This document shows positions 6,755 to 36,480 of a stretch of 54,459 bases of DNA, one piece after another. The notes under the pieces were generated by a model. That model ran no database searches. It was not told the origin of the DNA and was given only the letters and a program-made list of their open reading frames with translations. Made by a program: the position numbers and the translations under genes. Numbering within the stretch: position 1 is the first letter of the stretch; each line of letters starts with the position of its first letter. Origin of the DNA: Pleurostoma richardsiae (lineage: Eukaryota; Ascomycota; Sordariomycetes; Calosphaeriales; Pleurostomataceae); NCBI GenBank assembly GCA_030052745.1, contig JANBVO010000084.1:1-54459 (forward strand), read 5' to 3'.

Positions 6755-6799
6755 GAAGAGGGCTTTCGCTCTTTGGTAGCAAAAAGGACATTGCGCCGT

Positions 6800-7992: not shown

Positions 7993-10900
7993 CTAGATCT
8001 TCGACCAACGCAGAAGCACCGCGGCAGCAATGACTGGCAGCACGCTTACCAACTCTCCCAGTCCCGCAAACTCTGGAGGAATCCTCGCGTTGACAAAGGC
8101 ACCGGCAGCAAGAAGAACTGCGAAGGTGTTGTACACGAAACTCCACGCAAAGTTGAACTTGATGCGGTTGACGGATTTCCGACTTGCGTTCATCATGGTC
8201 AGAATACCAGCCAGGGAAGGACGCATGAGAACAACGTCCGCAGCGGATTGAGCAACATCCGTGCCTTCGTTCATATGGACGCCGATAGTAGCTTGCGCAA
8301 GAGCAACGGCATCGTTCGTGCCGTCGCCGCAGAAAACGACAACCGGCTTCTTGCGATCTGTGGCAGTACTGAGGAGAGTCTGGATGTAACCCTTCTTGTC
8401 GGCAGGCGAGCTTCGAGAGCGCACATTGTTACCAGGAATGCTAAGCTTGGATGCCAAGGTCCGAACGGCTCCGTCATCATCGCCAGAAACCACATGCACC
8501 GAGACACCACGCTTCTGCAAGGTTTCAACCGTTTCCGCAGCATCAGGTCGAAGTTCGTCCTCAAGTCCATAGACCGCCATCAGCTCATTGTCGATCGTAA
8601 AGCAGAACACAGTGCAGCCTTGAACAAGCATCGGCTGGACGAGTTCATGGTCCGACACATTCAGCCAGCGAGAGTTCCCAGCTCGAAGTTTCCGACCGTC
8701 CAGGGTGGTTTCGACACCTTTACCAGTCAAACTCTTCGGCTCAGGAACAGTCGAGGCCATGATTCCGATGTCTCTGAGGTGGACAGCTACGGCAACCGAA
8801 ACCGGGTGTCGACTGTTTTCAACCAGACCCAGAAGAAGTGGAAGTTTGTCCTCGTCGACGCACTCGTGTCCAACAACGGAGAGCTTTCCTCGAGTCAAAG
8901 TCCCCGTCTTGTCAAACACGACGTGCGAAGTCTTATGGGCGACTTCAATAGCGTCCGCGGACTTGAAGATGATACCCCGTTCAGCCGCGACTCCGCTGGC
9001 AATCACAATGACCATCGGAACAGCCAATCCAATTGCACATGGGCAAGAGACGATGAGAACAGTGATGGCGTAGGTGATGGCCTGGATGGTAGCTTCAGAT
9101 CCTCCATAACCACGGACAGTCATGCCCACTGCGACCCAGATGACGAACGTAATGATCGTCAATGCCACCACCACAGGGACAAAGTAGGATGCTACCCGAT
9201 CTGCCAGGTCCTGTAACTTGGGCTTCGACAGCTTGGCCTCGTCAACCATCGCAGCAATGGCGTGGATGGTATTGTCACCAGGCAGACGGTTCAGCCGAAC
9301 AGTCATGACTCCAGGTCCATTGATAGATCCAGCAATCACTACCGATTTGGAATACTTCTCCACCGGTCTGGATTCACCCGTGAGCATAGACTCGTCGACC
9401 TCAGAAGACCCGGTGACAACGGTGCCATCGGTCGGAATCCTGGTGTCTGGAAGAACCTTGAATGTGTCGCCATATTGAAGAAGTCGGGCGTCGATCTCAC
9501 GTTCCGTTCCACTTTCTTTGTCGACAAGGATGGCTGTCGGTGCCTGGAGTGACCGGATAGAAATGGACTCAACAGCTCTTTGACGAGCGAGAGCTGCAAC
9601 CCATCGGCCAACCATGATTAGAGTGACCAAGAGAGTGCTCGTTTGGAAGAATTGTCCAGTCGAAAGGGGTTTCCCTGCGATGAAGTACCCAAAAGAGACC
9701 ACAGAAAAGATGTAGGCAGCACTGGTGCTCAAGACAATCAAGAGGTCCATTTCGACAACTCTGGAGAAAACAAGCGCCTTCAGAGCCTTAGGGTAGAAAG
9801 GTCCTGCGATAACAAATTGAACGATGGTTGCCAACGCGAGTGAAGCCGAGGAATAGGCCAACTCCCGCTCGGGAAGAGGAGCCCATGCCATGACAAGAAC
9901 AGGAATCGCCAAGACAGCGGAGAGAAGCGTCATGTATCCAACATGACGAACATGCTTGCTGCCAGCCTCCAGCGACGGATCGCCACGAGGGGGAGCAAGT
10001 TCAATGGGTGGACCCCAGATCTTCTCGGCGAGGTCTCGGGCTCCCACAATCTTCGAGTCAAACGCAACTCGTACCGTCTGCTTGTCCACAAGCGCCATAT
10101 CAATGACACCCTCCGGCCATGTCTGACTCATGAACTTTGAGGGCTCGTCGGAAACGATAAGATCTAGGCTAGATCCCTGGTTCTGAACTCTTTCGCACTT
10201 GAATTCGGTTGTTCGCTCCAGATGTTTCATGACTTCTTCCACCGAGCCGAGGCGAAGGTCGATGTTGAACTCAGCTCGTGAGAGAACCAGGCTCGTCCTC
10301 AGGTCTTTGACAGCGGGAACTGTAGCGAGAGTTCGATTGAGCTTTGTCTCGCAGCCAGTACAAGTCATGCCAGAAATGCTGAGAACAACATGTTCCTTGC
10401 CGGTACCCTGATTCTCTATGTCTGTGATGGCCTGAATCGGGGCTTTCTCAATCTCCAAACCAGGATCGGGCGCAGCAGAGGAGCAGCAAGCATCGGCGCA
10501 AGAGCCTTGAGGGCTGACCGGCCGCTTTTCTGCGCAGCGAGAGTCCGCGCAACTAGTTTTCGGAGTCTTCACGATATGCTGCTTCGGTGGCTTGCAGCAA
10601 GAGCCAGAGCAGGCGGTATTGGGGGGCTCTTTGGTGATCGTATTCTTAACTGTTCCGCAACAAGATCCTGCACACCCACTAGTTGGAGGTTCAACAGACT
10701 TGACCTTCGGACAGGACGAGTCGGCAGCTATGCTCTTGGTGTCATTGTCTTTGACACGCTTGTCTCCGGGATAGCAAGATCCGGCGCAGCCGACCTTGGG
10801 AGGGGATTCTTCGACACGGGGAGTCTCCGAGCAGCAAGTGTCAAAGCATCCAGTTTGGGCGACAGGCTGCTTCGCAGGCTTTTCGACGGAGCAGCAATAT

Positions 10901-11724
10901 TTAGCGCAATTGACCTTGACGGATGGAGCCTTGGCGGGCTTGTCCTTCAAGCAACAAGAGCCAGCGCAGGCATCCGTGTAAGGCTTCTCGACAGGCCTGC
11001 CGCTTTCACCAGAACACTTTCGCAGGCGAAGGCGGTTCTGCGCGGCCTGGTCCTTGGTGGCGGGACCGCTGCTGATGCAGGAATCCAGCGAAGTGCGAAG
11101 AAGGGAGCGAGCAGACGACTTCTTGGAGCACTGCTTCCCGTCTAGCAAATGACGCTCGCGAATTTCACAGCAGGTTTCCTGGCCAAGAGCAACGAGAGCG
11201 CGGCAGATACATCCCAGGGCCTGTAGAGTAGCGCCATATCGGTCGAGGGCAGAGAGACTATGCTGGCCGCATGCCTTGCCGTTGGTAGCTCCACTGCAAG
11301 CTGAGGCGAGTTAGCAATCTTGAATGGCCTTCTCAAAGAGTGGCTACTCACTGTTTGTCTGAGCGGTTGGGCCGGGGGCAGCCGCAGCACTCATCTCGCA
11401 CTCCCGCATAGCCAAGTGGTCAAGACAAGACGTGTCGCAGCATGGGCCGGCTTTACCACGGCAGCAATCAGGCGCGTCGGTATCATCATCGGTTTTGTCG
11501 TCCGCGCAGTTGCCAGAAGAGCAGCAATCATCCGATTTCTCCTGTGTGGGCTCTCCCTGACCCGGAGCCTTCGTGTCGAGAGGCTCAGCGTCGCCATCGC
11601 AGCAAGAATCCTGGCAACTGCTCGTCTCCTCAACTCCCAAGTCGGGGTTGGGCCTCCCGACGCTAGGCTCTTCCGTAGGGGACAGGGCATGCTCATTTTT
11701 TGGTTCCGCTGACATGATCTCCAA
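7993..11724 (-). CDS. pcaA: P1B-type heavy-metal (Cu/Cd) ATPase with Cys-rich N-terminus, Pca1/PcaA-like
   Basis: Exons are 11352-11724 and 7993-11300. The 51-nt intron (GTGAGT, TGCTAAC branch, CTCAG) preserves frame, giving 1226 residues. The first ~400 residues hold about twelve degenerate Cys-pair repeats of the CAGSCC...K type. A heavy-metal-associated domain follows with GMTCTGC at about residue 435. The P-type core is complete: TGES about 765, the metal-binding CPC (SCPCAIGL) about 877, phosphorylated Asp in DKTGT about 921, the P1B-diagnostic HP dipeptide about 956, and GDGTND about 1116. Eight membrane helices are expected. The layout matches yeast Pca1 and fungal PcaA, which export cadmium or copper; in Pca1 the Cys-rich part is a metal-sensed degron. 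The gene is intact, and a broken copy lies at 19110-20785. Cargo of this type is known from metal-resistance Starships. Confidence 0.92.
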
Positions 11725-11871
11725 TCGATTCGATGTTGCTAGGTTGTTGGTATCTGTTGCTAGAAAAATGGTCGTACGTACAATGGGATCTGCCCGTTCA
11801 ATGAAAGGAGGGCTGGTGATTTAAGAGCCACGTTAGTCCGAATGTGGGTTCGGTCGCCACGTCGGAGTCTG

Positions 11872-12122
11872 CCAATCACAAGTAGGACATGACACACTCC
11901 CCCTAGTGTCTAGCCTCTCGTCGCATTGAAATGACTAGGCGGTAAAACCCGGATGGGCAAGGTCTTTTTCTCCACTACTGTGAGTTTTACCCAATCATGT
12001 CCGGGGCATGACAGGCATCGCCACCGTAAATCAAATCAATGCATCCGCATCGGGACAGCTCAGAAGCTAGGACGTGAGTGTTACCGACTGGGGTGGTATC
12101 CAATCATTGGGGGGCCATGACA
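11872..12122. promoter_or_regulatory. Three CCAATCA-N9-CATGACA motifs upstream of the P1B ATPase
   Basis: Copies at 11872-11894, 11991-12013 and 12100-12122 share both half-motifs with exactly 9 nt between them. The copies are 119 and 109 bp apart and are partly embedded in a diverged repeat (GTGAGTGTTACC / GTGAGTTTTACC). They lie 150-400 bp upstream of the ATPase start. The CCAAT part is a classical CBF/HAP-type box. The CATGAC part is the complement of the GTCATG word seen in the multicopper oxidase-metallothionein intergenic region. Regulatory function is inferred. Confidence 0.5.
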
Positions 12123-12149
12123 CGCTCCCCAGGTAAGCCGATGCCACTG

Positions 12150-12872
12150 AACCCCACTCCGTGGCGATGGTCTGGGCGACACCGCCTTCGTGATCTGTCA
12201 CAACCATGACATCTCGATGATCTTGACCAAAACCAAAGGACTTGCCATGATATTTTACATCACGAACTACGCCACCAAATTAGACACGCCCATGTGGAAA
12301 CGCCTTGTCTTCGCGGCTGATGTTCTTCGACAGCTTCGTGAATCTGCGACGCCGAGGAAGCCGAATCTTGCCGAACTGGATGCCCAGCGCCAGGCGGTGG
12401 TAAACGAAAGCCGTCAGTTTCTGATGAGGGCGGCCAACCGAATCTTTTCCGAGAGACAGCTTTCGGCCGTAGAGGTCTGCTACTTCCTGCTTGGCTATCA
12501 AACGGACTTTACTAACGTACCGCACTGGTCCTACATAAATCTGACCGCACTCTATTGGACCATTTTCCGGCGCTGGACACACCTCCGTCGCCAGGCCAGT
12601 ACGCAAACTGACGCCGAAGAGCCGTCGGAGACAGTACATTTTCGGGACAGTGGCCGGACTTTATTGTATCTGGATGCCTACGCCTCTCGAGGCTCGGTTC
12701 TGAAGGACGTGTGTTTCTATGACTATATGTCTATGATTATCCTGGAGCGTCGTCGTAGCCGAGATGAGGATGAAACCCGTATTGCTCTGGAAGGTCCTCC
12801 AGAGTGCGACGGATGGATCCAAAAGCTTCGCCAACCCCCCGAGTACGCTGTGCCGATCTTTCAGGGATTCAT
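12150..12872 (+). mobile_element. Helitron RepHel protein fragment
   Basis: The open frame contains stretches typical of the region between Rep and helicase in fungal Helitron proteins: GLAMIFYITNYATKLD, FSERQLSAVEVCYFLLGYQT, LYLDAYASRGSVLKDVCFYD and GWIQKLRQPPEYAVPIFQGF. Neither the HUH Rep nor the PIF1 helicase motifs are present, so it is an internal piece and non-autonomous. It runs in frame into a multicopper-oxidase tail at about 12872. Upstream, an in-frame stop at 12148 closes the frame. Confidence 0.75.
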
Positions 12873-13193
12873 TAATCCTATGCATCTGCACGGCCACAAA
12901 TTCTGGGTCCTTGGAACCGGCAGTGGGCCATTTCCATATGCCACCGCCCAGGAGGTGCCCTCGTCGCTCTTGAACTTCCAAAACCCGCCCTATCGTGACA
13001 CGTTCGAGCTTCCAGCGTCCGGGTGGGCTGTTATCCGGTATGTCTGCCTAAGCATAGAGGAATACCTCTTTCTCGATCGCTAACTCCAAAGATACCTTAC
13101 GGATAACCCTGGGGCTTGGTTGCTACATTGCCATCTGCAATGGCACATTGCCGTAAATTCGAGGACCCCTGTCGCCTTTGAGCTATATAGCAG
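12873..13193 (+). pseudogene. Multicopper oxidase (laccase/Fet3 type), C-terminal fragment
   Basis: Begins at PMHLHGHKFWVLGTG, the third-domain copper motif of fungal three-domain multicopper oxidases. It continues with LLNFQNPPYRDTFELP and, after an intron beginning with GTATGT at 13041, DNPGAWLLHCHLQWH, which carries the HCH and type-1 copper ligands. The intron join restores frame (VIR-YLTDNPGAW). Domains 1 and 2 are absent, replaced by Helitron sequence. It is therefore a captured gene tail. It is unrelated to the intact two-domain enzyme at 14082-15474. Confidence 0.75.
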
Positions 13194-13249
13194 CGCTTAC
13201 AGTCTGGATGTAGAGTGGTATGGCACTGGTCCTCGTCGAAGGTGATGAC

Positions 13250-14081
13250 AAGCTTCCTGGTCTGGTCGGCAATTCTACGATAGAAGCATCGGTCGGCCAG
13301 ACTCGTCGTACAGGCTATTGGGTTATTGTAGTGGCCATGACGGTTGCGTGTGTGGTCATTTAGCTGTCCGTCATTGCTTTGTTCCCATCCATGGTTTGAA
13401 CTCTCCGTTTTCGGTGATAGAACGACGCGGTTCCTCTTGGGACATGGAGTAAACTGAACGGCACAGTGGAAGGTCATAGAATCCTCTTTTCTCTAGACTT
13501 GTGCGATACTTTGCCAAAGGAACTTACAATATCCTTCTTTTGGGCAGCTGCAACCGTATCGCCAATCTCCAGTTGTCCTCACATCCTTGTCCCACGTTTT
13601 TTTGACGGGGGCAACGGCATTATACGTGCATCACGGTGAGGCATAACACATCGCCGTCATTCCTCGCTAACTACAGATCTTCCATCGGCCAGTCCGTATG
13701 TAGCGCGGGGTCCATGGGATGTCAGCCCCCTTTTCTCAGGTGCCTTCTGATATCCGCGTTCCTCAAAACTTGTCGTGCTCAGTTGCTTCAGGAGGCCATA
13801 ATGGTCTGCACCTTTTTCAGCGCCATAGCTGGGACACAGAGACGCACAGTCTCGCAGAAGAAGACTGATGGCTCAGGACCATCTGTTCAACATGTGCATG
13901 TAACTTTTCTGGAGTGTCACATAGTAGAGCATTTCAGCCGTCTTGGACACTTGTACCTATACACGCTTTCTTCGTTCTAGACAGTATTCCCGTAGTTTGT
14001 GTGAATGACTCCCCGGTTTCACTCCCCGATCCCCATATTGGGCGCACTCCGTTCATGGCTCCGAGGGCTATGAGAATATCC
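13250..14081. other. No gene recognised
   Basis: Short open frames on both strands match no family I know. The region separates the captured oxidase tail from the 3' end of the intact oxidase gene. Confidence 0.45.
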
Positions 14082-15474
14082 TTATGTAGCCTGGTACATG
14101 ACAATCATGCCCATATCGCGATGGTTGAGAACCTGACAGTGGTGGACCCACATACCGGGGTTGTCCACCACCATGGTTAGCGATCTAGTCTGAGCAGGCA
14201 AGACGTTTATCTGTTACGATTGTTACTCTCGCTCTTTCATCATTGGGGTGCAGAGACTTACGACATCAACTCTCTGCTGAGCCCAATACAGTGTGTTGCC
14301 GTGCCAATGGGGCGTGTGAACATTGAGCACATTGCCCAACGCTTGCTATTGCGGGACTTAGTAGATTCAGAAGACGACGGTGAAGGCCAGACTTACAACA
14401 TGCCACCGGGCGTTACTCCCTACCGTAAGGTTCAGGCCAAAGAGGTTTCCAAACATGCGGCCGTTGATGCTATGCTTCAAGTTGCTTTCTCTGAACCCCG
14501 GGTCCAACCGGTTAACTTGCAGCTCTCCTTCGGTGATGCTTGTCTTGTTGAGAGTGTTTTCATCGATATAATACGACTGGTTTTCGTCGACAATGAGAAA
14601 TAAAGTCAAGACCTCTTCGGTCAAGTTTGAGCCGGCAGGTGCAGGTACATCTAGTGTGTGCCGCGCGAGTTCACCTGGCCGGTATACAATCGAGGCTCCC
14701 ACTAGGCCACTGAACACATCTTGCGTTCCAGCAAAATCCGAGTGGTACGTCCAGGCCAGAGACGGAGGATCCAGAGGCCCGGGTCCGGAGCGTTCTAAAC
14801 ACGATTGCGCAGGTCAGACGATAATTCTGTGCAAGCTGTAATGGGGCATCTCACCAGGAACTTCCCACGTATAGGTCCACGTTGAACCAGGGGCAACGGC
14901 GTTGCCCCCAAATTCCTGCCCTGGCCCCGAAAGGCCCTCACTGTCCTTGGCGTACCGAAACCCGTGAGGGTGCATAGTGTGGTTGTGCGAAGCCATGTTT
15001 TTGAAGACTACTTTCACAGTATCTCCCACTTCCGCCCGAATGATGGGGCCAAGCATGCCCAGCCACTACAGACGGTGTTAGCAGATGACGCCAATCAGTT
15101 TCTACCACTACTTTACCTCAGGGCGTGGCGACTGTTGTGTGAAAGAACCATCCGTGTATTCGCGAAAGAGTGCTTTCTTATACACATGGCCAATCCTCTG
15201 ACCGTTCCTGCCAGCAACAGCGGCTGCCTGCGGGGACTGCCCTATCTGCACGCCATTAACCATATCCATTCCGCTGGAACATGTTCCATTAGTTACAAAT
15301 TGACTGGTGAGGGGCGGAAGGTGCTTGCAGGGCCTACCTAGGCATATAATCCCATTCTCCTTCTACGGCAGCCACATAATACGTCCTTGTGGTTCCATTC
15401 TGGTACGAGGCCGGGCCCGCAGCTGAAGCAGCTGCAAGCAGGTACAGGACCAATGTCCACGTGGATAGAGGCAT
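14082..15474 (-). CDS. Two-domain multicopper oxidase (ceruloplasmin-like), secreted
   Basis: Six exons: 15338-15474, 15117-15273, 14855-15065, 14397-14794, 14262-14345 and 14082-14210. All joins are GT..AG and in frame, giving 371 residues. An N-terminal hydrophobic signal (LSTWTLVLYLLAAASA) predicts secretion. Domain 1 has HPHG (130-132) and WTYHSD (183-188); domain 2 has HTPHWHG (311-317) and HHCQVLNHRDMGM (352-364). The type-1 copper ligands (His311, Cys354, His359, Met364) are present. The usual HSH and HCH pairs read HSD and HCQ, so two of the eight trinuclear-cluster histidines are replaced. The enzyme could oxidise Cu(I), Fe(II) or phenols, or act as a copper buffer. It shares a 641-bp intergenic region with the metallothionein, transcribed the other way. 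Confidence 0.85.
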
Positions 15475-16115
15475 GATCCTAAGTTAGGTTAAGGGAAGAC
15501 TGGGGTGCTTGTGTGGGTGAGGGCTCGCAAGAAACACTTGTTAAATAACAAAATGTGAGATCGACTATCTGAGGAAAAGCGAGTCCCGGGAGGGGTGAGA
15601 GAAGAATAGGAGGCAGCTTTTGGATGCCGAAGTTTAGAAAATGTTAAACAGCTGGACGTCCATATTTCAGTTTAGGGGTGAGAACAACTCTGCCGGGATG
15701 CGATCCACGAATGGGTGAGAACAAGTAACAATTTCTCAGTGAAGAATCTAGTCGTGACGACATGACCGACTCTTCTAGCCTGGTTGTCGCATTCTCGACA
15801 AGATACCGGCGAACAGGAAAAGCTTGACGTCATCCCGCGGAGATTAATAGAATACTTCAAGATGTCGTCATGACTACGACTTCCGCGAAGCTTTTCTCAG
15901 GGAACAAGACATAGGTCATGATTTCGTCATGGTTCCGTCTTGGTTACATCCTCACAAAATCCAAGCCTTCAAGGTCATAAAACGGCTAGAGAAGCCATTT
16001 GACTCCTGACACGAATGCATGCCAACCGGATCACATACAAATATCCGCGAACCTTCTTGTTCACCAGATCTTCTAAGCAAAACCTGTACTTCTTGAACTA
16101 GAGCTCGTCGTCAAG
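15475..16115. promoter_or_regulatory. Divergent multicopper oxidase-metallothionein promoter with GTCATG cluster
   Basis: GTCATG or its complement occurs at 15761-15766, 15867-15874 (palindromic GTCATGAC), 15915-15920 and 15926-15931, the last two 11 bp apart. A CRE-like TGACGTCA lies at about 15825-15832. Chance expectation for a 6-mer on both strands over 641 bp is about 0.3. The same word occurs three times upstream of the P1B ATPase. No other gene fits in the interval. A metal-responsive or stress-responsive role is inferred. Confidence 0.5.
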
Positions 16116-16289
16116 ATGGCTTGTGATTGCGGTTCGTCCTGTGCTTGTAGCGGGCCTAGCTCCTGCACCTGCGGTCAGGGTTGTTCGTGCAAGGCATGCG
16201 GAGTCAGTACAATCAGATTTCCAACTCATGGATACCTCGCTTACATGATTAGAAATGATTCCAATCAGCACCTGAACGAAATGGAGTGA
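16116..16289 (+). CDS. Metallothionein
   Basis: Read with one intron (16203-16268, GTCAGT..ATCAG) it gives 35 residues with nine Cys in CxC and CxxxC patterns (MACDCGSSCAC, SCTCGQGCSCKAC) and a short polar tail. Read straight through, the frame is also open and gives 57 residues with a non-Cys tail. The spliced form matches the size of ascomycete copper metallothioneins (25-40 residues). These proteins chelate Cu(I), Cd or Zn in the cytosol. It is divergent from the multicopper oxidase and convergent with the AspRS-like gene. It sits within a block of metal genes, which supports the call. Confidence 0.88.
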   Translation: MACDCGSSCACSGPSSCTCGQGCSCKACGVSTIRFPTHGYLAYMIRNDSNQHLNEME

Positions 16290-16590
16290 AAAAGCAGTAC
16301 GGGGTACTGAAGACTGCTTTGGACATCAGTCATTATAACTTTGGTACGCTGTCGGATGAAATATGTAACGGCTTGGTCTGAACGAGTTAGACTTAGAAGT
16401 CAATATTATTTCGCTTCTGAATTGCCGGGTCCTCGGTACTACTGCATTTCATCGGCTATAAACCACATTTGTCCTTGTAGTCTGCAAGGCATTGCCTTTA
16501 TTATGGCAACACAAGTAGTGATATTCGACAGCCAACCAAAACAGACGGTAGCAAAAGTGACAGTCAAAGTTTTGAGAGCAGATAGTACAG

Positions 16591-17767
16591 TCAGCATGGC
16601 ACAAGGCCTCCTGGTAACCCAAACCAGTGGCGGTCTTCCAGCCGAAGCAGCGCCGCGACGAGACGCTCCAGACCCAGACATGCGCCGCCGTGAGGAGGGA
16701 CACCCAAGTCAAACCCGATCAGATATTCCTCTATCTCATCTTCGGCTATTCCTGCATCCCTCATGCTCGCCCGGAGTTCCTGCGGGTCATGGATGCGTTG
16801 ACCGCCGGTGCAAATCCGCTGTCCGCGGATAAAGACATCGAATGAATTGGTCCACGCGGGGTTTTGGGCAATTTTCTGTATGCAGAAGGACCGAGCAGTT
16901 GCAGGGAGTCTGTCAAGGATGTAGTAGTCACTGTCATATCGTTCTCTGACCAACTCTCCCAGGCGTTTCTCATCCTGGGCGGACAAGTCCATTCGCTCCA
17001 CATGTAGACCGTCTTCCCATAGCATCCCTAAACCCTCCTCATACGGGATTATTATTGTCTTGTTGGGCCATACGAGGTCGTGGCTCGGCCATCGCTGCCT
17101 TAAAGTTTGGAGCTCGCCCATGGATTGTACGGCAGTGAAGGTAGCCTTCAGGAATCCGTCAACAACTTGTATGAGCTCGTTGTACGTATTTGAAATGGCC
17201 ATCTCGATGTCAAGGCCGACGTACTCGGCCAGATGCTGGCTAGGGCTGGAGCCTTCAGCATGGAAGACAGGACCTATCTGTAAAGGGGTATGTCAACGAC
17301 ATACTTACTTCAACTACCTTTTCAAGACTCACTTCATAGACCCTCTGAAAACCTGCGACTATTGCCATTTCTCTCGCAACGTGGGGACCGTGAGTCAAGG
17401 ACGGTTTCCCTCCGAAGTTGCAGATATTGAGCACTCCGGCACCCGTGTCTGCTGAGGCCTGCAACTTCGGTGTATGGATCTCGATGAAATCCTGACTTTC
17501 GAGAGTTCTGCGGAAGGCCCCGACAACGGCGGCACGGATGCGGAACAGAGCATGGTTTGTGGGATTGCGGCGGGCCAGCGTGCGGTCTGAGAGTCGCTCA
17601 GGAGCAGCGCTTGACGGGTAGCAGTTGTCTGATGTTGCGTCACGGCCGGAATTAAAGAAGTGCATAGAGAGAGGGCCTTCAATATCGGAATGATCAGTAG
17701 GCTCCTGGGCGTTGCGCAAGATGCTGGCGACTTCCCCTACCTCGGGCATGTCGACAACCTCTGTCAT
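16591..17767 (-). CDS. AspRS-like class II synthetase paralogue, catalytic domain only, altered active site
   Basis: Exons are 17333-17767 and 16591-17277. The 55-nt intron (GTGAGT..TTACAG) keeps frame, giving 373 residues. It aligns with cytosolic aspartyl-tRNA synthetase from just before motif 1 (RRNPTNHALFRI, FIEIHTPKL) to motif 3 (CLGLERLV). The N-terminal OB-fold that reads the anticodon is replaced by about 55 unrelated residues. Motif 2 FRAE reads FHAE (His151), the substrate loop QSPQ reads HGPH (126-129), and the ATP/Mg acid in GEEI reads GQRI (297-300). The HDPQ segment and the motif 3 Arg are kept. The usual FPRD...P ending is absent. The frame has no stops, so the protein may be used for something other than tRNA charging. 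Alternatives are regulator, amino-acid ligase or slow decay. Confidence 0.8.
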
Positions 17768-18298
17768 CGTGGTTAGTCACGAGCTTCTAGGGTCCGCGCT
17801 TCAGGCCATCTTGGCACACCGTTGCTGATGTCTGACTCTGCACCTCCCTGCTCGGCCATCAGTAGATTGGGCGGCCCGTTTGCTCTAGTTGTGTCCAGCA
17901 CTAACAGCGGTTTATTTAAACATTTGGCGCGAACGGTTGGAAGTGCAGGGGTGATGGATTGCACTGTTCATTGCCTTCATCGGAGAAAATCCCAAGGTTC
18001 CTGAGCGCTTCGGTCTTTGTTGTAGGCCTTGGCAATATGTAAATTATATCGACCGTTGAGCTGCGGTCGCACGCCGGACGCTAGCATCGATCATCTGGAG
18101 GAGGGTGCAATTGATTGATTCTCTCTCGAATTGCCCAGTAGAACCCAATGCCATCGACAGGCTTTAGTTTAGACAGTAGACCTATACCCATACTTATAAC
18201 CTCCAGAAAAGCAAATAGCATAGCTACTCTCACTACTAAGCATTTACCGTATGTAAATGTCAAGCGCACTTAGTTAGTTCCTATAGACGGCCGTCTCC
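17768..18298. other. Intergenic, no gene recognised
   Basis: Contains the upstream region of the AspRS-like gene, with a TATTTAAA-like box at about 17913. No GTCATG word is present, unlike the other metal-block promoters. Confidence 0.5.
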
Positions 18299-19012: not shown

Positions 19013-19109
19013 TAGCTCGGGCGAAATCTCGAAGAGATCTTGTGGCCTCCTTCCGAGGCCGCTTGGAGCGCTGGAGGCTTCCGAAGAGCAGTTTCCCCCA
19101 GCGCAGCCT

Positions 19110-22285: not shown

Positions 22286-22388
22286 TTGAGCAGCTGGTGA
22301 TCGCGAATACGCCAATCCGAAGCTTGACAGAGAGGGAAGGGAAGGGGGTAGTGATTGTCGAGGTTTGCTAGGGAGTTAGCTGCGAGAC

Positions 22389-22410
22389 GGCCCGCTGACG
22401 TCAGCGGGCC
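22389..22410. repeat. 22-bp perfect palindrome containing a CRE (TGACGTCA)
   Basis: GGCCCGC-TGACGTCA-GCGGGCC reads identically on both strands. It lies about 100 bp past the BTB relic. It could be a bZIP (CREB/ATF) site or a hairpin end of a lost element. Confidence 0.8.
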
Positions 22411-22727
22411 CCGGCAAGACCGCGGAGATTCAGAACGGCTAGATACGTAAATTGAGCTTCTCATATTCCAAGTAGCCTCCCACGCGTGATTGCCTCCCTC
22501 TCGATGGTCCAAAGTAGCGCTACCCCCTGTCCGATGCTACCATCTCCCAGATGCAAGCCGTACCCCTTTTCCCGCGGATTTCGTCCATGTTTCCAATACC
22601 ACTCTCACAAAGCTCTTGATATGCATATGGGATATCTCTACCTTTACGTCGAAGTGACGTATGGAATCACGGAACAACGGCTGGCTCTAAATCTGTTTTT
22701 GGAATCATGCTGGGAGACGAGGGAGTG

Positions 22728-23088
22728 CCCTAGGACGGAAGGGATGGCCTAGGACACTGGTTTGTCCTAGGACGGGGGAGTGTCCTAGGACGGGGGAGTG
22801 TCCTAGGACGGGGGAGTGTCCTAGGACGGGGGAGTGTCCTAGGACGAAGGAGTGTCCTAGGACGGGGGAGTGTCCTAGGACGAGGGAGTGTCCTAGGACG
22901 GGGGAGTGTCCTAGGACGGGGGAGTGTCCTAGGACGAGGGCGTGTCCTAGGACACTGGTTTGTCCTAGGACGAGGGAGTGTCCTAGGACGGGGGAGTGTC
23001 CTAGGACGGGGGAGTGTCCTAGGACGAGGGAGTGTCCTAGGACGGGAGTGTGTCCTAGGACGGGGGAGTGTCCTAGGACGGGGGATTG
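22728..23088. repeat. Minisatellite, about 20 copies of an 18-bp unit
   Basis: Unit TCCTAGGACGGGGGAGTG, each centred on the 8-bp palindrome TCCTAGGA. Most units differ by 0-2 bases. An ACTGGTTTG variant occurs near the start and again mid-array. It is translated without stops on the minus strand but carries no sign of being a gene. It directly abuts the GATT tail of the LINE. Confidence 0.95.
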
Positions 23089-23374
23089 ATTGATTGATTG
23101 ATTGATTAATTCATAGACTGTCCCAGCCGCCCTGGGGCGGCTATGCAGCGTACAACTACCAATACAGGTGCCTCCGTTTCTGGCTTCGGGGAGAGTGGCC
23201 ACTCCTGCGAGAATTGCGTCGTGGTCAAACTTGGCTCTTCTCGCTGGAGTGGGTTCCCGTCCGCTCGAACTTTGGCTCTCTACTGACAATCATTCTGGCT
23301 GTTCTATCTCTATGCACTCGTCAGGCCTTTCCTGGCCCTCCTCGCCTTCTGTTTGCTGATATCACTCGTCTACG

Positions 23375-26300
23375 CTAGGAAAATTGGAGTACTGTCGACG
23401 GGACCGCCCTGAATTGCTTCAGGAGTCCCGTCCTGAGCATCATCTTTGCTGCTTGTACCGCCATGGTCGGACTACAGAGAATGCGCTTGAGGTCCACGCA
23501 CGGAGTCTTGCCTGCCCACATCTGTTGTCGCTCTTCCGCCCAGTGGCGGCATTCCAGGAGGATGTGTCGCACTGTCTGTGGTCCGTAGCCGCACTCGCAC
23601 TGATCGGTGTCGGCTTGGTTGATGGCGTAGAGGTATGCGCGTAGGCCGATCTTGCCTACACGCATCTGGGTGATGACCGAGCTAATCGCTCGGTGCGTCC
23701 CTTTGTGGATTTTCAGGATGCCCTTTCCTGGCTGGACGCCGAGTCGGTGGAGGTCCCGGCCGTGTTTTGCGTACTCCCAGGCCGCGTCCCACTCGTCCTT
23801 CATCCTCGCGCGGATGTTGGTCCTCGTGGTGGCTATCAGCGTCCGCGCGGTCGTTGGTTGTTGTTGTGTGCTCGATCCCATGCCGGCGGCTTCCTTGGCC
23901 GCTTGGTCGGCTGCTTCGTTGCCGGGCACTCCGACATGTGCGGGGATCCATCGGAACTGGAGCTCCCATCCTTGATTTCGGAGCTCATCCAGGATCAGGA
24001 TCGCCTCCGCCAGGATGTACTGGCCCGACGGGCATTTCGGATTCCGGATCGCCTGGATGGCAGCCTGGTTGTCGGTGAAGATGGCGCACTTGCCGGGGCT
24101 GCTGGTTTCGGTGTATATGTCTTGTACGATCTGCATTGCAAGCACCAGTCCTTTGAGCTCCGCCGCGTACACCGTGGAGGTGTCGGACGTGCCCATGTAC
24201 TGCAGTCGTTTCGACCTAATGTCGCTGTTGGACAGCATTGGCGCCACCGCTGCGGCGCCCACGTGGTCGTTGATCCCGCTCCCGTCGGTGTAGATCCGGA
24301 ATGTTCCTGGGTCTGTAGCGTCATGCTCCTGGACGGCTTCAGTGGCGGAGTCGTTGATCCGGATGAACGGCGGCGTCCACCATGGTGGTACCACGTGCGG
24401 TTGGCGTTTCTCTAGGTGGTCAAGTTGGAGGCCATGTTTATGTTCCAGGATAGTCGAGAAACGGTCCAGCGGGCTCTGAGCGTCCCGCCGGGGTGTGCGG
24501 CCGTTGCGCGCCGTTGGTGCCATATCGCTGTACAGCGGGCTGGTTCGAATACGCATGGTGGCTTCCAGCGCCGTCTGCTCGAGCTGCTGTTGCACCGGGA
24601 GCAGGTTGGCTTCGACGTCTACTGCATCGCCAGCCGTAGTTCTGAATGCCCCTGTGATGGTCTGGGCCGCCCGCCTCTGGATCTTCTTGATGGCGTTGAC
24701 CATCGAACTGCCCCTCCTTGTCGGGCTCTTTCCGGGGATGTACCACACGGAGCACCCATAGAGCATCTGCGGGATGATCATCGCGCGGTACACGTGTCGG
24801 AGGTTCATCATTCCCGTGCCCCATGTTGAAGACGCTAGGGCAGAGAGGGCTGAGAGTCGTTTTGTCGCCGCTGCCTCTACCTTCTCGCGATGGTGGTCCC
24901 ATCGGAGCTTAGTGTCCATCTGGACACCTAGGTATCGGCATGACGGGGACGCCTGGATCGTGGCGTGTGGTAGGCGGAGTGCGTGTGTGCTATTTGCCTT
25001 GGGATCCCTGGTGAAGTGGACTAGCTCGTACTTTGCCGGCGCGAACTGCGATCCATGCTTCTTCGCCCACTCTTCTGCCTTCCGGTGGAGGCTCTTGAGG
25101 GTCTTACAGTTACGCTGCGCAGTCGGGCCTACCGCTAGGATCGATACGTCGTCGATGTAGCCGACCGCTTCCGTGTCCTCCGTCTTGCTGGTCTCAATGA
25201 GGTCGGCATTGTAGAAGAGGTAGAGAATGGGCGAAACGGGCGATCCTTGCGGGATGCCCGTCTGGATGGGTGTCGACGGTGCTGTATATTCTTGTAGCTT
25301 GAGCGTGGTCGAGCGGTCGCTTAGGAACGATGCCACCCAGCCTATGATCGCCGGGCTAACCCGGCGTTTTCGTAGGTTGTGGAGCAGCCGCTCTCGCGAC
25401 ACATTGTCGTAGGCCCCGGACACGTCAAGCAGTAGTAGGGAGGCCACCTTGTTGTCCGCCCACGCTTGGTGGATTCGCTGGAGGAGGAAATGAATCGCGT
25501 GGTCGGTCGAGGCGAGTTTCCTACCTCCTGTGTGTCGGCTCGGAAGGAGTCCGTGGGCGTCCGCGAGGTAGGCGAGTCGGTTCGCCACGATGGCCTCTAA
25601 TGCCTTTCCTAGTGTGTTAAGAAGGGCGATCGGTCGGTATGACTTTGGCTGGGTATAGTCGTCCTTTCCTGGCTTCCGAAGCACGACCGTGACAGCCTCC
25701 TTGAAGTGTGCAGGGCAGTACCCTAGGCGGAAGCACGCGTTAAATAATATGTGGAGGCTCGGGAGCAGGATGTCGAGTGTCTGGTGCAGGATCGCGTTCG
25801 GGATCCCGTCTGTCCCAGGCGCTTTGTTCGGGGATGCCCTGCGCACCGCCTTCTCGATTTCCGCTTCGGTGATGTCTGGACATTCGATAGGGGTAGGGTA
25901 TTCGTGTCCCTCCAAGTCTGAGAGGTCCGCTTGGTGAGGGGGCGGAAAGAAGGACTGGCGCAGCACGTCAGCCTTCTCCTCTGGCTGCTGCGCAAGTCCC
26001 CCGTCCGGTCGAACGAGCGCGGGCGTGCTCGCCGGTGTCTCGTTGTGTCGGTTCTTCGCCCATTTGACGAGCTTCCAGAGGCCGGACGGGGATTCGGACG
26101 CTTCCTCGACCCTCTGTCGGTGGGTATTGCGGAGAACCTTCTGTATGTGTCGACCCTTCTTGTTGCGTGCCTGTCGGTAGGCTTCGTAGTCGTCGTCTTG
26201 TCTCGTCCGCTGCCATCGTCGGCGGAGCCTTTGCACCTCTAAACACAGGTCCTTGCACTCTTGGTCGAACCCCGCGATGGAGCGGGGGGACGGGTTCGAC

Positions 26301-27283
26301 CATGGTGTCGACGCGTCGATGGCGACCTGGATCGCCTCGACGATGGCTGATACAAGATGGTCAATGCTGCTGTGGTCTGTAAGCTCCGTCCCGTCCCCCG
26401 CTGCGAGGAGGCGGTCCTGGAGTGTCTGACGGAGGACCGCTGGGTTCGTCTTTGCCCAGAGGCGTTTTCTTGTCGGGGTTGCTGGCTGCCAGCGCCAGTT
26501 GATGGTTAGTTCCAAAGGGAGGTGGTCCGAGTCGCAGTCGAGCTGCTGGTCGATTCGGCAGCAGACCAGTCGGGATGCTATCTCCGGGGTACCGAAGGCG
26601 AGGTCGATTGTAGATTCCCCGTCCTTCCATCGGTGGGTCGGGGTTCCTGGCACTGTGAGGAGTTCCAGCTGAGCGTCTTCGATCACCGTGAGAAGTGGTT
26701 GGGCGCTGGGTCCCTCGCTTGCCCGTCGGTGTGTTGTTGACCAGAGGGGGTGGTGCAGGTTAAAGTCTCCGAGCATCACAACGTCGCTGTCCGGGTCGAG
26801 GGCGGCCAGGGTTTCTGCCACGGTGGAGAGTGTATCTGTCCCGACCTCGTTGTAGACGTTGATGATGTGGAGCTGTCTGCCGGAACTTGGGCTGCGGATC
26901 GCTAAGGAGACGATGTCCTTGGAGATGTATGAAACGCTCCATGCTCCTGGGTCGATCCGCTTGTTGATATAGAGGCATGCCCTCGTGGCCGTGTCGTCGA
27001 AGTAGGTAAGTTGAAAGTGTGTCTTGAGAGGGTGGTAGGTGGTGTTGATGAATGGATTCCGCCAGGGTTCTTGGATTGCCAGGATGTCGTACTCGAGGAC
27101 TCGCGGGTTTCGGAACAGGCTGGCGAGGACGACGTCCCTTGACTTCTGGACGTTGTACTGCAAGATTCGTAGCTCTTGGTGTCCTAACATTCCTGTGGTG
27201 CTGTGCTGGCACCGTATGTTGGGGATTGGCTTCGTGTCGTTCTGGTCTCGGTTCGCCCGAGCGAGTCCTCTATGGGGGTCCAA
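23375..27283 (-). CDS. LINE ORF2: endonuclease, reverse transcriptase, RNase H
   Basis: Up to 1302 residues. Order: APE-type endonuclease ([42 protein letters not shown]); reverse transcriptase ([30 protein letters not shown], catalytic YIDD); RNase H ([40 protein letters not shown]); C-terminal zinc-knuckle-like CECGYG...HILLECRHW. All catalytic motifs are present and no stop interrupts. The start at 27190 ([10 protein letters not shown]) overlaps the ORF1 stop in ATGTTAG and is as likely as 27283. It carries out target-primed reverse transcription in the nucleus. Confidence 0.93.
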
Positions 27284-29361
27284 CCTGGGATAGCAGAGCT
27301 ATATTTCCCTCGTGTCTCGTGGACCACTCTCAGGTTCCGGTGGGCGTATTTCTTCCTCATGTGCTTGCGTAGTTCGGCCGTGATTTCGTAGTCCTTGCCG
27401 CAGTACACGCACACTTTCATGCAGACGGCGACGGTGAGCTCTGCATCCTGCGTTGGCCAGTCGCTGTATATATCCTGGTGCTCCGGACATTTACATCCTT
27501 TGTAGATCGTCCCTTGCGCCGTGCGCGTGTCTGTCGCCATAGAGGTAGGCGGGGAGGGCTCCTCTACTTCGGGGTTGTTCAGCCAGTCATCTGCGTTGTT
27601 CGCCATGTTTTCCAGCCACTCATCTGCTTCTTGCATGGCCGCCCTCTCCGTCTCGTCCATTGGGTATGCGGACGTAGAGGGCTGATTGTCCATAGCCAAG
27701 AGCTGCGGATCAATTGCCAGGTCGGGCGCCGGTGCGTTGTGCGGCATCGCGGGAGTTTCCCACGCCTCCTCATTGGGCCCCTCGGTCGGGGATGGTACTA
27801 CTATGATGTCAATGGGTGCCGGAGCCTCGGGGGGCGCGGTGTCCTGCGGCGGCGGGGTGCGGTTGCTTTCCGGCAGACGCGGGCTTGTCCCCCCTGGCTG
27901 TCTCTCTCCTGCTATGTGCCTAGGGACCTCTACCTGTGGTATCCTGGTTTGTCGGCGCGTGTTGGCGATGTGCGTCGGCGCACTTGGCGGGGTTGGCGTC
28001 TCCTTGGCCGGGACGTGCCAGTAGATGCTGCGGGCCTCCTTAGCTTGTTCCACTCTCCGCATTTCCTTTCTTCTTGCTGGGCAGGCATTGCTCCATGCTG
28101 TGTGGGCTTCTTTGCACATTGTGCATCGGGGGGTGAAACCTTCTGCTCCCTTCTGCTTGCAGTGCTTGGTCTCGTGTAGCTCGGCGCAATAGCCGCAAGT
28201 TTGGGATGCGTTGCATTGAGTGCCGATGTGGCCATACTGGTAGCAGCGGAAGCATTGCTTCACTCTGCAGGCGCGGTCGTAGAGTTGGCATTGGTGGATC
28301 TGGCCTTCCCACGCCAGCCCGGCGTAGATGACGGCGTTGGCCATCTCCGGGTCCGTGAATTCGACAACGATCGAGGATGCTCGCTTGAGTGTGGCCTCTT
28401 TGGTAAGCCATCCTATGTGCGATATATCCGCTCGGGGGATCACTGTGTAGTTGTCTGCGAGCATCTGCTGGATCGTTGCTTTCTGGTCCTTCATGTTGAT
28501 GGAGCTGGTGGAGATACCATGGACGATGACTCCGTACGTCGGGACAATCACTTCTGCATGTTCTCCCAGGCCTCTGAGCCATCCTTTGTTCTGCTTGAGC
28601 TGCGTGGCCTCGGCGGTTGTGCTGGTGAAGATCTGGATGTCGCCGCTTTTGAGTTGATGCGCGGCGACTATCTTGGCCGTCTTGGTAGCTGCGTTACCGT
28701 GTACCGCGGTTTCCACTTGATGCCGTATCCAGGTTGCCGGCTGGGTCCGATATCGCTGGGCGATGCCGTGGTCTTTGACCTTGACTGTTACTACTCGGTC
28801 TTTGTATGCTGTGACGGTGGAGTGGGTCTTGGACGCGGATGTGCTCGTGGGAGGAGGGCCTTTGGCATGTGCCGCTACCTGTGCCCACGACGGGGCTGCG
28901 TTTTTCCCCCGGTGGAAATTGGCTGCATTAAGCGGTGTTGTGCTCAGTCCTACCGAGTTCTTGATGATGGTGACGTCTCTCTGAATGTTCTGTGTGCATC
29001 TGGCCGCGTCCTGGACTTGCTGGAGGATCTCACTCATCGCAGGCTGTCGCAGGACTTTGCCAATGAGCGCCAGGGTAGAATCCATGTATTGCTGTACTAC
29101 GTTCCATGGTACCAGGTCCTGCCGTCCTCTCTCTACCGCTTGCAACTGGCTGCATGCTTCTCTGAGGTATGTGGCGTGCTCGTTGATGTGGTCCGGGCCA
29201 ATGTTTACCTGCGGCCATTTAGGCGCCATTACCGCCGATAGACGCGTCATCACCACACGGTCGAAATTGGAAGAACAGTACGCTGTTGGACTTTCCGGAC
29301 ATGATCGGCACTGCGTCCTGGGGGTGGCATGAATCTCGGTACCGTACCGTCCCTGCTTCAT
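27184..29361 (-). CDS. LINE ORF1: gag-like nucleic-acid-binding protein
   Basis: 725 residues. The N-terminal half is helical; three zinc knuckles follow in order: [14 protein letters not shown] (CX2CX4HX4C), [13 protein letters not shown] and [16 protein letters not shown] Pro/Glu-rich linker and a further C-terminal Cys/His cluster ([20 protein letters not shown]) complete it. This is the usual ORF1 arrangement of fungal Tad-clade LINEs, which coat the RNA. Some upstream start ambiguity remains. Confidence 0.9.
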
Positions 29362-29498
29362 TCTTTCTCAGGACGTAGGCATCAAGGTAGAGCACGCCCT
29401 CAATGTGCCCAAGTCGTTGTAGGGTTGGTCAAGTGGATGGAGGAAATTCATTCAGGTTTGTTGTCTAGGATGAAGGTTAAAGTCCAAGGTAAATAAAT

Positions 29499-32127
29499 TT
29501 AGGCCCTTAACTTGACGCCGTGAATCGTCTCTACGTGGTTTTTAAAGTGGTTCAAGTGCTTGAACCTCAACGCCCCCCCCTGACACTTGGGGTGGTTGCA
29601 TACTATCTGCTTCGCATCACCCATATGCCTCGCGTGTGTCCTATCGAAGTGGTCGTACATCACAGCAGGCCGACAGTATTGGAAAGTCCTCTCTTCGTAG
29701 GACAGGCTCTCGTCCCCGATGCAGCGCGGGCATTGCGTCCTCTGCATCAAGAGCGGAAACGTGTCTGGGCTGGGAGACTCCTCCTTCACCATAACATCGG
29801 CGGGCGCTCTTTGCCGAATGCGTTCCCGTTTGACGGTCTCTCGCTTGCCACACAGGATAGACATGAGCTCGCCCGCCCGGATGCGGACTGCAAGGAGCGC
29901 GGTGGAGCTCAAGTCTTCCGGCTGTTTGCAAAGGATCTGGGCAAGCTCGGCACGCTCCGGGATGTGCAGGTCGACGGCCGGCTCGACATACTCCTGCTCC
30001 TCCTCCCCATTGGCCTGGCCCTCAATATCCCAGGTCGGGCGGTGGTGGAAATAATCCTCCCGGTACCCCCGCCGAATATTCTTGCCACGCTTTGCCCGCT
30101 TTTTGGCGATCAACTTAGTAAGCTCTCGAATCCGGTCCTCGTTCTCTGTGCCTGTAATCCGGTATTGACCGCCTTTGAGCTCTGCTCTCTCCGCCTCCAG
30201 CGCGAGGATCTCCGGATCGGGGGGCATTTCGGCCCAGACCTCATCAGGGACCATATCCTTGCGCGCGCGGGGGTCGCACATGACGCTGATGTGCGAAAGC
30301 ATTCCGATCAGGCTGTCTTCGGTCGGCTCGTCCAGGACTGCGTTCTGCAGGTGGAACTGGACCTTCTCGTTGATATATGCGCTGTTGAACGTGGCCCACT
30401 TCGGATCGTGGCGCATCATCTGATCGCGGACAGCGTCAGACGCGTTACCTGTTCACTCTTAGAATAAGCGCCACCCTCAGGGCATGGAAAGACATACCGT
30501 TAGCCGCATTTCCTGCTCCTCTACGCCAGGCCTTGGGCTCAATCGGCCTCTCACATCCATAGTCTAGCGATTGTCGCGCCATGTCGTCTCTCAGTTTGTG
30601 GTATGGGAGAGGTTCGTATGGAGGAGGTTCATATGGAGGAGGCTCATATAGAGGAGGTTCATCTGGAGGAAGTTCATATGGAGGAGGTCCATCTGGAGCA
30701 AGTTCATATCGAGGAGGTCCAGCTTCTGAATGGGTGTGTTGACTCCCGCTTGTCCCGCTGTGTGTGTGCTCTGCCGCACCTGCACTCGCTGAAATGATGG
30801 TGCCGTCGAACCGGCGGAAAACAGGCCTCTTGAGCCATTCCTTCTTCCAGCGGAGCGGCGTGCATTTGACTGGGCCGCGATTCTTCACTTGAAAGACTCG
30901 ACTGACGCTGGTCAAACTCGACGCCGCGAACGCGCCGTCGTGCACTGCAAGACTGACGATGATGGTGATAAGACAGAAGATCAGCCGCTTAGTAAGCGTG
31001 AAGAAGAAGACGGTCCTAATTGCAGATCGGTTAGGCCCAAGACCATTTAGGAGAACTGGGCAGTACGTACGGTTTGGGCTTGTTGTCTGCCCCCTTGTGG
31101 TGGATGAACTTGATGGACATTGCCAAGACGTCCTCGCCGGTGTCCGGGTGGCGCACGGCCATCAGCAAGATGTCTTCGTAACAAAGACACTTTGGACGTC
31201 CGCGGCCCACGGTCTCTTGCGAGAGTATCTCTTCCAGCACCCTGGAATCGTCATCTAGCGCATAGTCTTCGTCTTTGCCGGCGGAGGACCCCTCAATAGC
31301 TTTTGGGCCGAAAAGCTCCTCCAAACACCCGTCCTTAGGGCTCTTTCTCTCGCCGTCCACGAACTCGGCCGGCCGCGCCCCCGTGAAGGCAAGGCCGAGG
31401 TAGCACCCCGATAGGTTCATGCGATGCCTCTCCCAAGAGAAGATGCTGGTATCGTAGGCAATATTGAAGGTCAGAAGGGCTAGCAGATCGCCGGAGTCGG
31501 CAACGTCCTTTCCGCCGCTGTTGGGCGCCTGGAGATCGAAGCGAGGGACTAAGATGGCATCGTGCCACTTGCACTCTCCGTCAGCATTGGCGTCATAAAC
31601 CAGACGCTAAGACGAGACTTACCTTGAGCACTTCTCTGCTGTCATTCCTGTCCATGTAGCGACCTGTGGCGCTGGCGTACAACTGCTTGTATTGGCGAAA
31701 ATATTCCCACGATGTGCCCCAAGACTTGATCCTGTATGCTTCACACAAATGGAGGAGGAAATCCATCGCCATTGCTCGGTCTGCTCTTTTGATAACCTCT
31801 TCCCAAGTCCCTATCAGGTCGGCAGATACGCAGTATCTCCATGTCAGTTAGCCACGGTGCTGATTGAGCGAGAGAAGGGCCCATTTACCTCTTCCATTTT
31901 CGTAGCATGCCCGCAATGTTGATCTTGGTGTTGTCGGCATAGTCTGGCTTGAGGAATTGAACGTCCTTGAGCTGCTCGCGGAGGGCGGCATGCTGGGCGG
32001 CTGTGAGGGCCTTTGGCCTTTTGGAAATTCGCCTCTGCGATTCTTGCTGCGTGAAGCGTTGGATGAAATCCGCGCCGTGACGCTTGAGATTGTTTGGGAG
32101 CGGTCGTGCGGGGGCACGCGGAGCCAT
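29499..32127 (-). CDS. DUF3435 tyrosine recombinase, candidate Starship captain
   Basis: Five exons: 31889-32127, 31623-31836, 31071-31567, 30498-31015 and 29499-30448, all GT..AG and in frame, 805 residues. It matches DUF3435 ('FluG-domain') proteins throughout: N-terminal SAM-like part (LRKWKRYCVSADLIGTWEEV), the Arg-box FTGARPAEF (Arg216), LPYHKLRDDM (Tyr455), WRRGAGNAANG (Arg481) and the nucleophile segment TFNSAYINEKV (Tyr514). These fit the R-Y-R-Y catalytic set described for captains. A C-terminal region has a CPRC and Cys/His zinc-finger-like cluster ending in HFKNHVETIH. A Pro/Tyr-rich tandem insertion sits at residues 412-452, just before Tyr455. Captains cut and paste very large transposons and lie at their 5' end, reading inward. 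A LINE now follows the gene. Confidence 0.92.
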
Positions 32128-32155
32128 GTCTTCGAATGAAGCTGAATGCGAAGCC

Positions 32156-32180
32156 CTCCGACTCTAGTGCAGAGTCGGAG
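32156..32180. promoter_or_regulatory. 10-bp-stem hairpin in the captain 5' leader
   Basis: CTCCGACTCT and AGAGTCGGAG are perfect inverted repeats around a 5-nt loop, 29 bp upstream of the captain ATG. It could be a recombinase or repressor site, or an mRNA hairpin that limits translation. Confidence 0.55.
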
Positions 32181-32348
32181 AGCGCGAAATGTGCGAAAAC
32201 CGCCATTTTGTACCATGCTGATGGGGAGCCGAAAATGGAGGTCAGGTCCTGAATCTGGGATGCTGGAAACATGTCCTTAAGAAACAGAATGCCCCAAGCC
32301 TTGCGCTTGGAACATGGGTGGGGCGGCGGCTGTGGACCAGCTGGGTGG

Positions 32349-32387
32349 AGGGGTCAAGCCGCGCAGGGGTCAAGCCGCGCAGGGGTC
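32349..32387. repeat. Tandem 16-bp repeat, 2.4 copies, upstream of the captain
   Basis: Unit AGGGGTCAAGCCGCGC, two exact copies and a 7-bp partial third, about 225 bp upstream of the captain start. Short direct repeats near the 5' end of mobile elements are often recombinase-binding sites; this is inference. Confidence 0.7.
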
Positions 32388-32504
32388 GGAGAAGTGGTAC
32401 TAAGTACGTGACAGTGACTAATGCGCCTCACTGTCAACGCCGCTGAAATTAGCGACATGCGCCAGCCAAATTCGGCGGCCAGAACAGCGATTTCTCGACT
32501 TAAT

Positions 32505-32572
32505 GTGTAATTTTTATAAAGATAAGGAAATTAATTAATTATTTTAATATTATTATTATTACTCTCACTCTC
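32505..32572. repeat. AT-rich stretch, possible outer edge of the element
   Basis: A run of TTAATTAATTATTTTAATATTATTATTATT type bounded by normal-composition DNA. No gene is present between the captain and 32670. Confidence 0.45.
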
Positions 32573-32669
32573 TAACCAGTCACCGACTCTTCTCCTAGTC
32601 TCCGCTTTCTAACAAACTCTCCTTTCCATTGATTCTTCGCTACTTTTCCTAGGACGTGATCCCAACGGG

Positions 32670-36475: not shown

Positions 36476-36480
36476 TCGAT

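Follow-up and report, generated by a model that had tools for sequence, protein, structure and literature searches.

A delimited Starship element in Pleurostoma richardsiae, probably still mobile, with a cargo of putative metal-defence genes

Starships carry genes from one fungus to another, yet the ends of many candidate elements have not been defined. Among described elements, Hephaestus of Paecilomyces variotii (captain HhpA) resembles the one analysed here in its 5′ captain that reads inward, in the target TTAC(N7)A, which is given as canonical for the Hephaestus family (PMC12153272), and in its metal-resistance cargo; as far as the available text of the reports goes, a single transporter affords resistance to both cadmium and lead (PMC12153272, PMC11623301). 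The accessible text of one report also describes Nebuchadnezzar from Aspergillus fumigatus, a member of the Hephaestus family whose target TTACA(N5)AAT resembles that of our element and whose cargo differs, as it carries an arsenic resistance cluster and no pump with metallothionein is mentioned there; the same text gives terminal inverted repeats in 18 of 20 A. fumigatus Starships (PMC12153272). A cadmium pump of this species is PcaA (PMC5909057, PMC10581124). Here we analysed contig JANBVO010000084.1 of Pleurostoma richardsiae (assembly GCA_030052745.1, 39.4 Mb in 136 contigs), which is referred to as C120 or, at its full length of 54,459 bases, as the window: very likely, it harbours a complete Starship that carries a putative metal-defence cargo and is probably still mobile. 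The element is unusually well delimited.

The element could be delimited by comparison with a sister element in the same genome (contig C64, 70041–154844, 84,804 bp), with which it has both termini in common and from which its flanks differ. The homologous stretch has a sharp boundary at each end, AATTACA on one side and GATTAC on the other, beyond which the flanks are unrelated: at window position 2432 and C64 position 154844 the common terminus TGTTCTCGATTAC gives way to unrelated AT-rich DNA at each locus. In the 39.4 Mb of the genome, the 3′-terminal 21-mer is found with zero mismatches only at C120:2432–2452 and C64:154824–154844; two further matches have three mismatches, and a reversed control likewise gave 2. 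Both elements have the direct repeat ATTAC. With both ends located, and one repeat copy counted, the window element measures 30,075 bp and its C64 sister 84,804 bp. The window element is smaller than Hephaestus. Its inverted repeat is imperfect (14/16), and none of 5000 shuffles was equally good, whilst that of the C64 element matches at 13/16 positions (9/5000 shuffles equally good). The targets read TTAC-TATTTTA-A for the window element and TTAC-GTTAATA-A for the C64 element, hence TTAC(N7)A in 2/2 cases, although in such AT-rich flanks the final A alone carries little weight. On the features tested here the element belongs to the Starship superfamily: the captain is the first gene and reads inward, short direct repeats and terminal inverted repeats are present, and a gene cargo lies between captain and 3′ end. 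The target motif agrees with that of the Hephaestus family, to which the element may belong. A sequence-only reading of this stretch had proposed a candidate Starship with metal cargo, headed at its 5′ end by an intact DUF3435 captain reading leftward and inward, with a guessed left end at about 2.2 kb and a total of about 30 kb. Captain and metal block indeed lie within one element whose ends recur on C64; the start and stop of the captain were exact, its ATG lies 379 bp inside the 5′ direct repeat, and the guessed end and size came close to those found.

The relationship between the two elements extends beyond their termini. A genome search with window 29400–45400 returned a single close copy of the captain region, on C64, and window 32512–29243 is 93.7% identical to C64 70035–73274. 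Comparison of the window with C64 62,001–82,000 and 143,663–156,344 revealed that the order captain, metal pump (a P1B-type ATPase), Myb gene and 3′ end is common to both elements, with the orientation of the ATPase relative to the Myb gene inverted between them. The C64 element also holds a PCA1-type pump and the Myb gene between the termini, and as captain and pump both sit between the common termini, they go together there; none of four open frames behind the C64 captain had a Pfam match. The host site of the C64 element is a repeat strongly affected by repeat-induced point mutation (RIP), with values for the 5′/3′ flanks of 0.16/0.17 (GC), 1.37/1.35 (TpA/ApT) and 0.07/0.13 ((CpA+TpG)/(ApC+GpT)). 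Other copies of this repeat provide natural empty sites: a search with 1,500 bases of each C64 flank gave 16 and 13 matches, the C64 site itself included, from which the eight places where both flanks abut were chosen; matches to a single flank (C80, C126, C52, C1 and another place on C87) were left out, as were short ones on the opposite strand. All eight paralogous sites read uninterrupted across the C64 junction and hold a single target copy, and the C64 insertion was therefore precise, with a 5-bp direct repeat. Ends, repeats and the insertion junction of the sister were observed, and catalysis is inferred: the captain would bind both ends, each made up of the direct repeat ATTAC and the inverted repeat, carry out recombination between them and integrate the element at TTAC(N7)A. 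The window element itself lies in AT-rich DNA.

Features of the window element (positions in the window; exon models were all read from the sequence)
Feature	Position	Strand	Basis or detail
Whole Starship, 30,075 bp counting a single direct-repeat copy	2432..32506	-	ends common to C64 element, flanks unrelated
5′ direct repeat ATTAC (flank copy)	32507..32511	-	sequence reading
3′ direct repeat ATTAC, then TATTTTA-A, i.e. TTAC(N7)A	2432..2436	-	sequence reading
5′ inverted repeat TCGAGAAATCGCTGTT	32483..32498	-	14/16 against 3′ inverted repeat
3′ inverted repeat TCGAGAACACGCTGTT	2436..2451	+	14/16 against 5′ inverted repeat
Captain, DUF3435 tyrosine recombinase, 805 aa	29499..32127	-	exons 32127-31889, 31836-31623, 31567-31071, 31015-30498, 30448-29499
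P1B ATPase, PCA1/PcaA type, 1,223 aa, Cys-rich N-terminus, two exons	7993..11715	-	domains, exon model
Ceruloplasmin-like copper protein with two cupredoxin domains, secreted, 371 aa, gene in six exons	14082..15474	-	exon model, alignment
Metallothionein, 30 aa, 9 Cys, CxC motifs	16116..16258	+	Cys pattern; exons 16116-16202 and 16253-16258
Aspartyl-tRNA synthetase (AspRS)-derived protein, 373 aa, two exons, catalytic motifs changed	16591..17767	-	exon model, alignment
Open frame with Myb-like domain, recognisable gene nearest the 3′ end	4611..6167	+	PF13921 E 0.0013, below cut-off; common to C64
Degenerate Myb-like gene fragment with stops	18341..18803	-	sequence comparison
Degenerate PCA1-type ATPase fragments, several pieces	19429..20776	+	one in-frame TAG in HMA piece
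Long interspersed nuclear element (LINE) retrotransposon, ends approximate	23085..29243	-	open frames, domains, AATC tail
18-bp tandem array GACGGGGGAGTGTCCTAG, 20.5 copies	22716..23085		abuts LINE tail

The captain model runs from the ATG at 32127 to the stop at 29499 over five exons with four canonical introns and no internal stop, and its product matches PF11917 (DUF3435) with E = 5.4e-50; in the genome this profile matched 34 stretches, with exon pieces counted apart. The captains of the window and of C64 (805 and 799 amino acids) are 91.7% identical over 799 aligned residues, with a synonymous divergence (dS) of 0.115 and a nonsynonymous divergence (dN) of 0.038 (ratio 0.33), and judging by this comparison the captain is intact and under constraint. 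For the Sanctuary captain the accessible text lists R260, A263, K308, Y424, R427 and Y458, and for HhpA it gives Y381 and Y416, which correspond to Sanctuary Y424 and Y458, as necessary for function (PMC12506042). The aligned set in the window captain comprises R216, E219, a conserved KG.DNKPKP stretch, K478, R481 and Y514, with K478 the single catalytic position seen to depart from the expected set. In four other aligning loci (L002, L003 and L004, which are alike there, and L007) the position of HhpA Y381 is a tyrosine, which is not known to define the Hephaestus family. The captain gene also contains a 15-bp coding tandem repeat of PPPYE type before box II (30587–30721), the copy number of which differs between the window and C64 captains.

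The metal cargo comprises a pump, a metallothionein and a secreted copper protein. In the ATPase, HMA_PCA1, HMA, E1-E2_ATPase and hydrolase domains were matched and a CPC motif was read in the protein; it resembles the PcaA/PCA1 cadmium pumps in its HMA_PCA1 domain, CPC motif and cysteine-rich N-terminus and differs from them in being element-borne, the transported metal being putative. The genome has HMA_PCA1 at 4 places, namely in this gene, in a broken copy at 20.5 kb, in the C64 element and in a resident gene on C52, and the core of the window ATPase is 73.5% identical to the C64 copy and 57.5% to the resident one. The metallothionein gene has a single intron of 50 nt (16203–16252); no Pfam match was obtained for its 30-residue product, which is very short and the family of which was named by its cysteine pattern. 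It resembles the Neurospora-type copper metallothionein in being small, in having CxC motifs and in ending in CG-K, and differs from that protein in its length of 30 residues with 9 cysteines. Divergently oriented from it is the copper protein, residues 25–369 of which (of 371) align to ceruloplasmin (whole-chain E 2.4e-198), and almost its full length is matched by each of the three ceruloplasmin repeats. It retains HPHG, HTPHWHG and a Cys-His-Met set for a type 1 site, reads YHSD against the YHSH of ceruloplasmin repeat 1, and has HCQ where repeat 1 likewise has CQ; the complete set of copper ligands of a multicopper oxidase was thus not found. It differs from ceruloplasmin in consisting of a single repeat and in having YHSD and HCQ where a full oxidase has histidine. 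Its third exon (the one exon searched) and the metallothionein each had one genome match, on the element, although a metallothionein of other sequence could be missed. Judging by their families, the three proteins would each lower the toxicity of metal to the host: the pump would export cadmium and copper, the metallothionein would bind Cu+ in the cytosol and the ceruloplasmin-like protein would bind, and perhaps oxidise, copper outside the cell; together they look like a ready-made metal-tolerance module. Neither metallothionein nor ceruloplasmin-like protein is mentioned for Hephaestus in the accessible text (PMC12153272, PMC11623301). In the open-access literature we found no Starship linked with a metallothionein, no Starship captain linked with a multicopper oxidase and no DUF3435 captain of a Starship linked with Myb. 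Among the papers listed by a wider search, those on Starship transposons mentioned neither Myb nor aspartyl-tRNA nor ceruloplasmin, whilst words beginning with 'sant' do occur in them. The sequence-only reading had listed a metal block of pump, oxidase, metallothionein and AspRS-like genes: these genes are present, intact and on the strands it gave, whereas the terms oxidase and synthetase went too far, since catalytic residues are lost. Between pump and copper protein lies an open frame (12151–13080, +) whose C-terminal part matches laccase/ascorbate oxidase and whose N-terminal part looks like a fungal Helitron/PIF1 helicase; this frame, which is distinct from the copper protein gene, may be a piece of a laccase captured by a transposon.

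Several observations weigh against a complete, still mobile element with a metal-defence cargo. Both captains exhibit a lysine (K478) at the position aligned with Y381 of HhpA, which sets the window captain apart from HhpA, and recombinase activity is therefore not assured. An empty site of the window element was not found: no match was listed for the flanks 32513–33822 and 2143–2431 in a flank search that skips simple and very common words and scores only the best candidates. For window 12–18 kb, which contains the multicopper oxidase-type, metallothionein and AspRS-like genes, no C64 match was listed, so that these genes are linked to the element by position only. The copper protein lacks two of the eight trinuclear ligands, which makes its oxidase activity doubtful, and the metal-defence function of the cargo is one assigned from family. 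The alternative that survives best is a decayed, immobile Starship, in which ends and genes persist around a dead captain; we consider it unlikely, albeit deserving of some weight. K478 would fit such a state, as would the internal decay seen in the degenerate ATPase and Myb copies and in the LINE insertion. However, the captain retains a full frame, conserved introns, a low dN/dS between the copies and R216, E219, R481 and Y514, and the lysine is common to two elements that both inserted. Furthermore, KxxR is found instead of HxxR in some archaeal integrases, and a lysine at this position need not be fatal.

Comparison of the two elements also reveals an uneven divergence along their length. 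The 5′ leaders are identical at 352/363 positions (97%; 19 gap columns, most of them due to one 16-bp tandem unit) and those of the captain introns at 193/211, as against 554/716 (77%; 49 gap columns) for the 3′-terminal 750 bases; the difference between leader and 3′ end is significant (Fisher p 4.5e-20, gap columns left out). The Myb genes have a dS of 0.35, and the ATPase cores are synonymously saturated (pS 0.77). Taken together with the dS of the captains, these values make the captain end a much younger shared piece than the rest of the element. The two ATPases may be separate acquisitions, of which the contrast in noncoding divergence is independent. As the change in similarity falls at the LINE junction 29243, where similarity to C64 also stops, the exact breakpoint of the mosaic has been lost. 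An explanation for the contrast could lie in selection only, with no exchange, given that the captain coding sequence is constrained; this appears improbable, as leader and introns show the contrast to the 3′ end too and as it extends to synonymous divergence, from captain over Myb gene to the saturated ATPase. Thus, the pair suggests exchange of the captain within one family: exchange or homogenisation between the captain ends of the two sisters would be far more recent than any common history of their cargo ends. In the accessible text of a published account, captain swapping between captain families is raised as an open question (PMC12134995).

In case of the AspRS-derived protein, a working synthetase serving in self-resistance or housekeeping would be compatible with the intact frame of 373 codons and the match to PF00152 (E 9.7e-53). 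Such a role is nonetheless very unlikely, as the protein has HGPH..RE where QSPQ..KQ is expected and FHAE in place of FRAE in motif 2, and the profile search gave no match to an anticodon-binding domain; neither the motif 2 arginine, nor QSPQ, nor the anticodon domain of an aspartyl-tRNA synthetase is thus found. Its alignment indicates that it is probably best seen as a pseudoenzyme rather than as a tRNA ligase. Genes on C45 and C1 match its second exon at 55% and 41% identity, respectively.

It could also be argued that only a short captain unit of about 3.3 kb, a solo DUF3435 gene or Crypton-like element, is mobile and that the metal genes are ordinary host neighbours. The highly similar block does stop at the LINE junction and does not resume in the C64 stretches compared, and solo DUF3435 genes are common according to the available text (PMC12134995). 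This can be set aside almost entirely: the matching end lies 30 kb away with inverted and direct repeats and recurs on C64, the empty-site repeat of C64 resumes exactly at the far end of the element, and position 29243 shows the start of the LINE and no element end. Segmental duplication of one locus is ruled out by the differences in flanks, size and cargo arrangement, with the ATPase inverted relative to the Myb gene.

The empty sites also bear on how this Starship family may find its targets. At the C64 junction the eight other copies of the repeat read CTAC (C119, C57a, C57b and C64c), TTAC (C98), CTAT (C64b), TCGC (C87) and CCGC (C104), so that TTAC is present in the hit copy and in C98 and absent from 7/8 of the other copies; at the target, hit copy and other copies differ by transitions only. 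In 500-base bins (349 in all) taken from the window, both C64 stretches and 27 further loci, the density of TTAC(N7)A per kb was 8.26 at GC < 0.25 (47 bins), 7.32 at GC 0.25–0.40 (41 bins) and 1.06 elsewhere (261 bins), so that, in the part of the genome sampled, AT-rich DNA has about 8 times the motif density of normal DNA. CTAC(N7)A showed no comparable rise in the same bins (1.79, 2.59 and 1.22). Base composition by itself makes any AT-rich motif denser in such DNA. The available text reports that many Starships insert into transposable elements and AT-rich DNA (PMC12134995). Tentatively, and from one insertion and one density, we propose that C→T changes by RIP may create TTAC(N7)A in repeats that hold CTAC or CCGC, and that this Starship family would then insert into mutated, silent repeats. 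If this is true, and if captain modules are exchanged between resident elements, the family would find shelter in RIPed DNA and have its captain renewed. One genome here yields two elements of one family with both ends and their repeats, and the C64 element has eight natural empty sites as well; two questions become testable, namely whether Starships swap captains and why they land in AT-rich repeats.

The LINE separates the captain from the metal block and sits immediately behind the former. Its second open reading frame (ORF2, 23378–27298) encodes endonuclease, reverse transcriptase and RNase H, and ORF1 lies within a stop-to-stop frame (27187–29367) for which there was no Pfam match. A target-site duplication of at least 9 bp was not found, the longest shared word being 8 bp, of which one copy is internal to the LINE and not terminal.

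Outside the element, the contig end truncates a second DUF3435 gene, distinct from the captain (window 1–252). Pieces 93–96% identical to it sit near the ends of C129, C44 and C87, and this repeated captain therefore seems to break the assembly. An open frame with an APH/RIO-type kinase domain follows to the left of the element (265–1383, +), and a dispersed repeat of about 248 bp (1893–2140) lies beside the 3′ flank, this repeat or part of it accounting for at least 32 of the 47 matches of the genome search that covered this flank. On the other side, window 34200–45100 shares pieces at 69–93% with several small contigs, C105, C16, C103, C117, C124, C129, C19, C31 and C7, the shared piece lying about 12–13 kb from the contig end on C105, C16, C103 and C117. 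This region is possibly subtelomeric; TTAGGGTTAGGG was not found in the window. It also contains a Ulp1-type protease domain (37173–38771, +; PF02902 E 6.1e-12).

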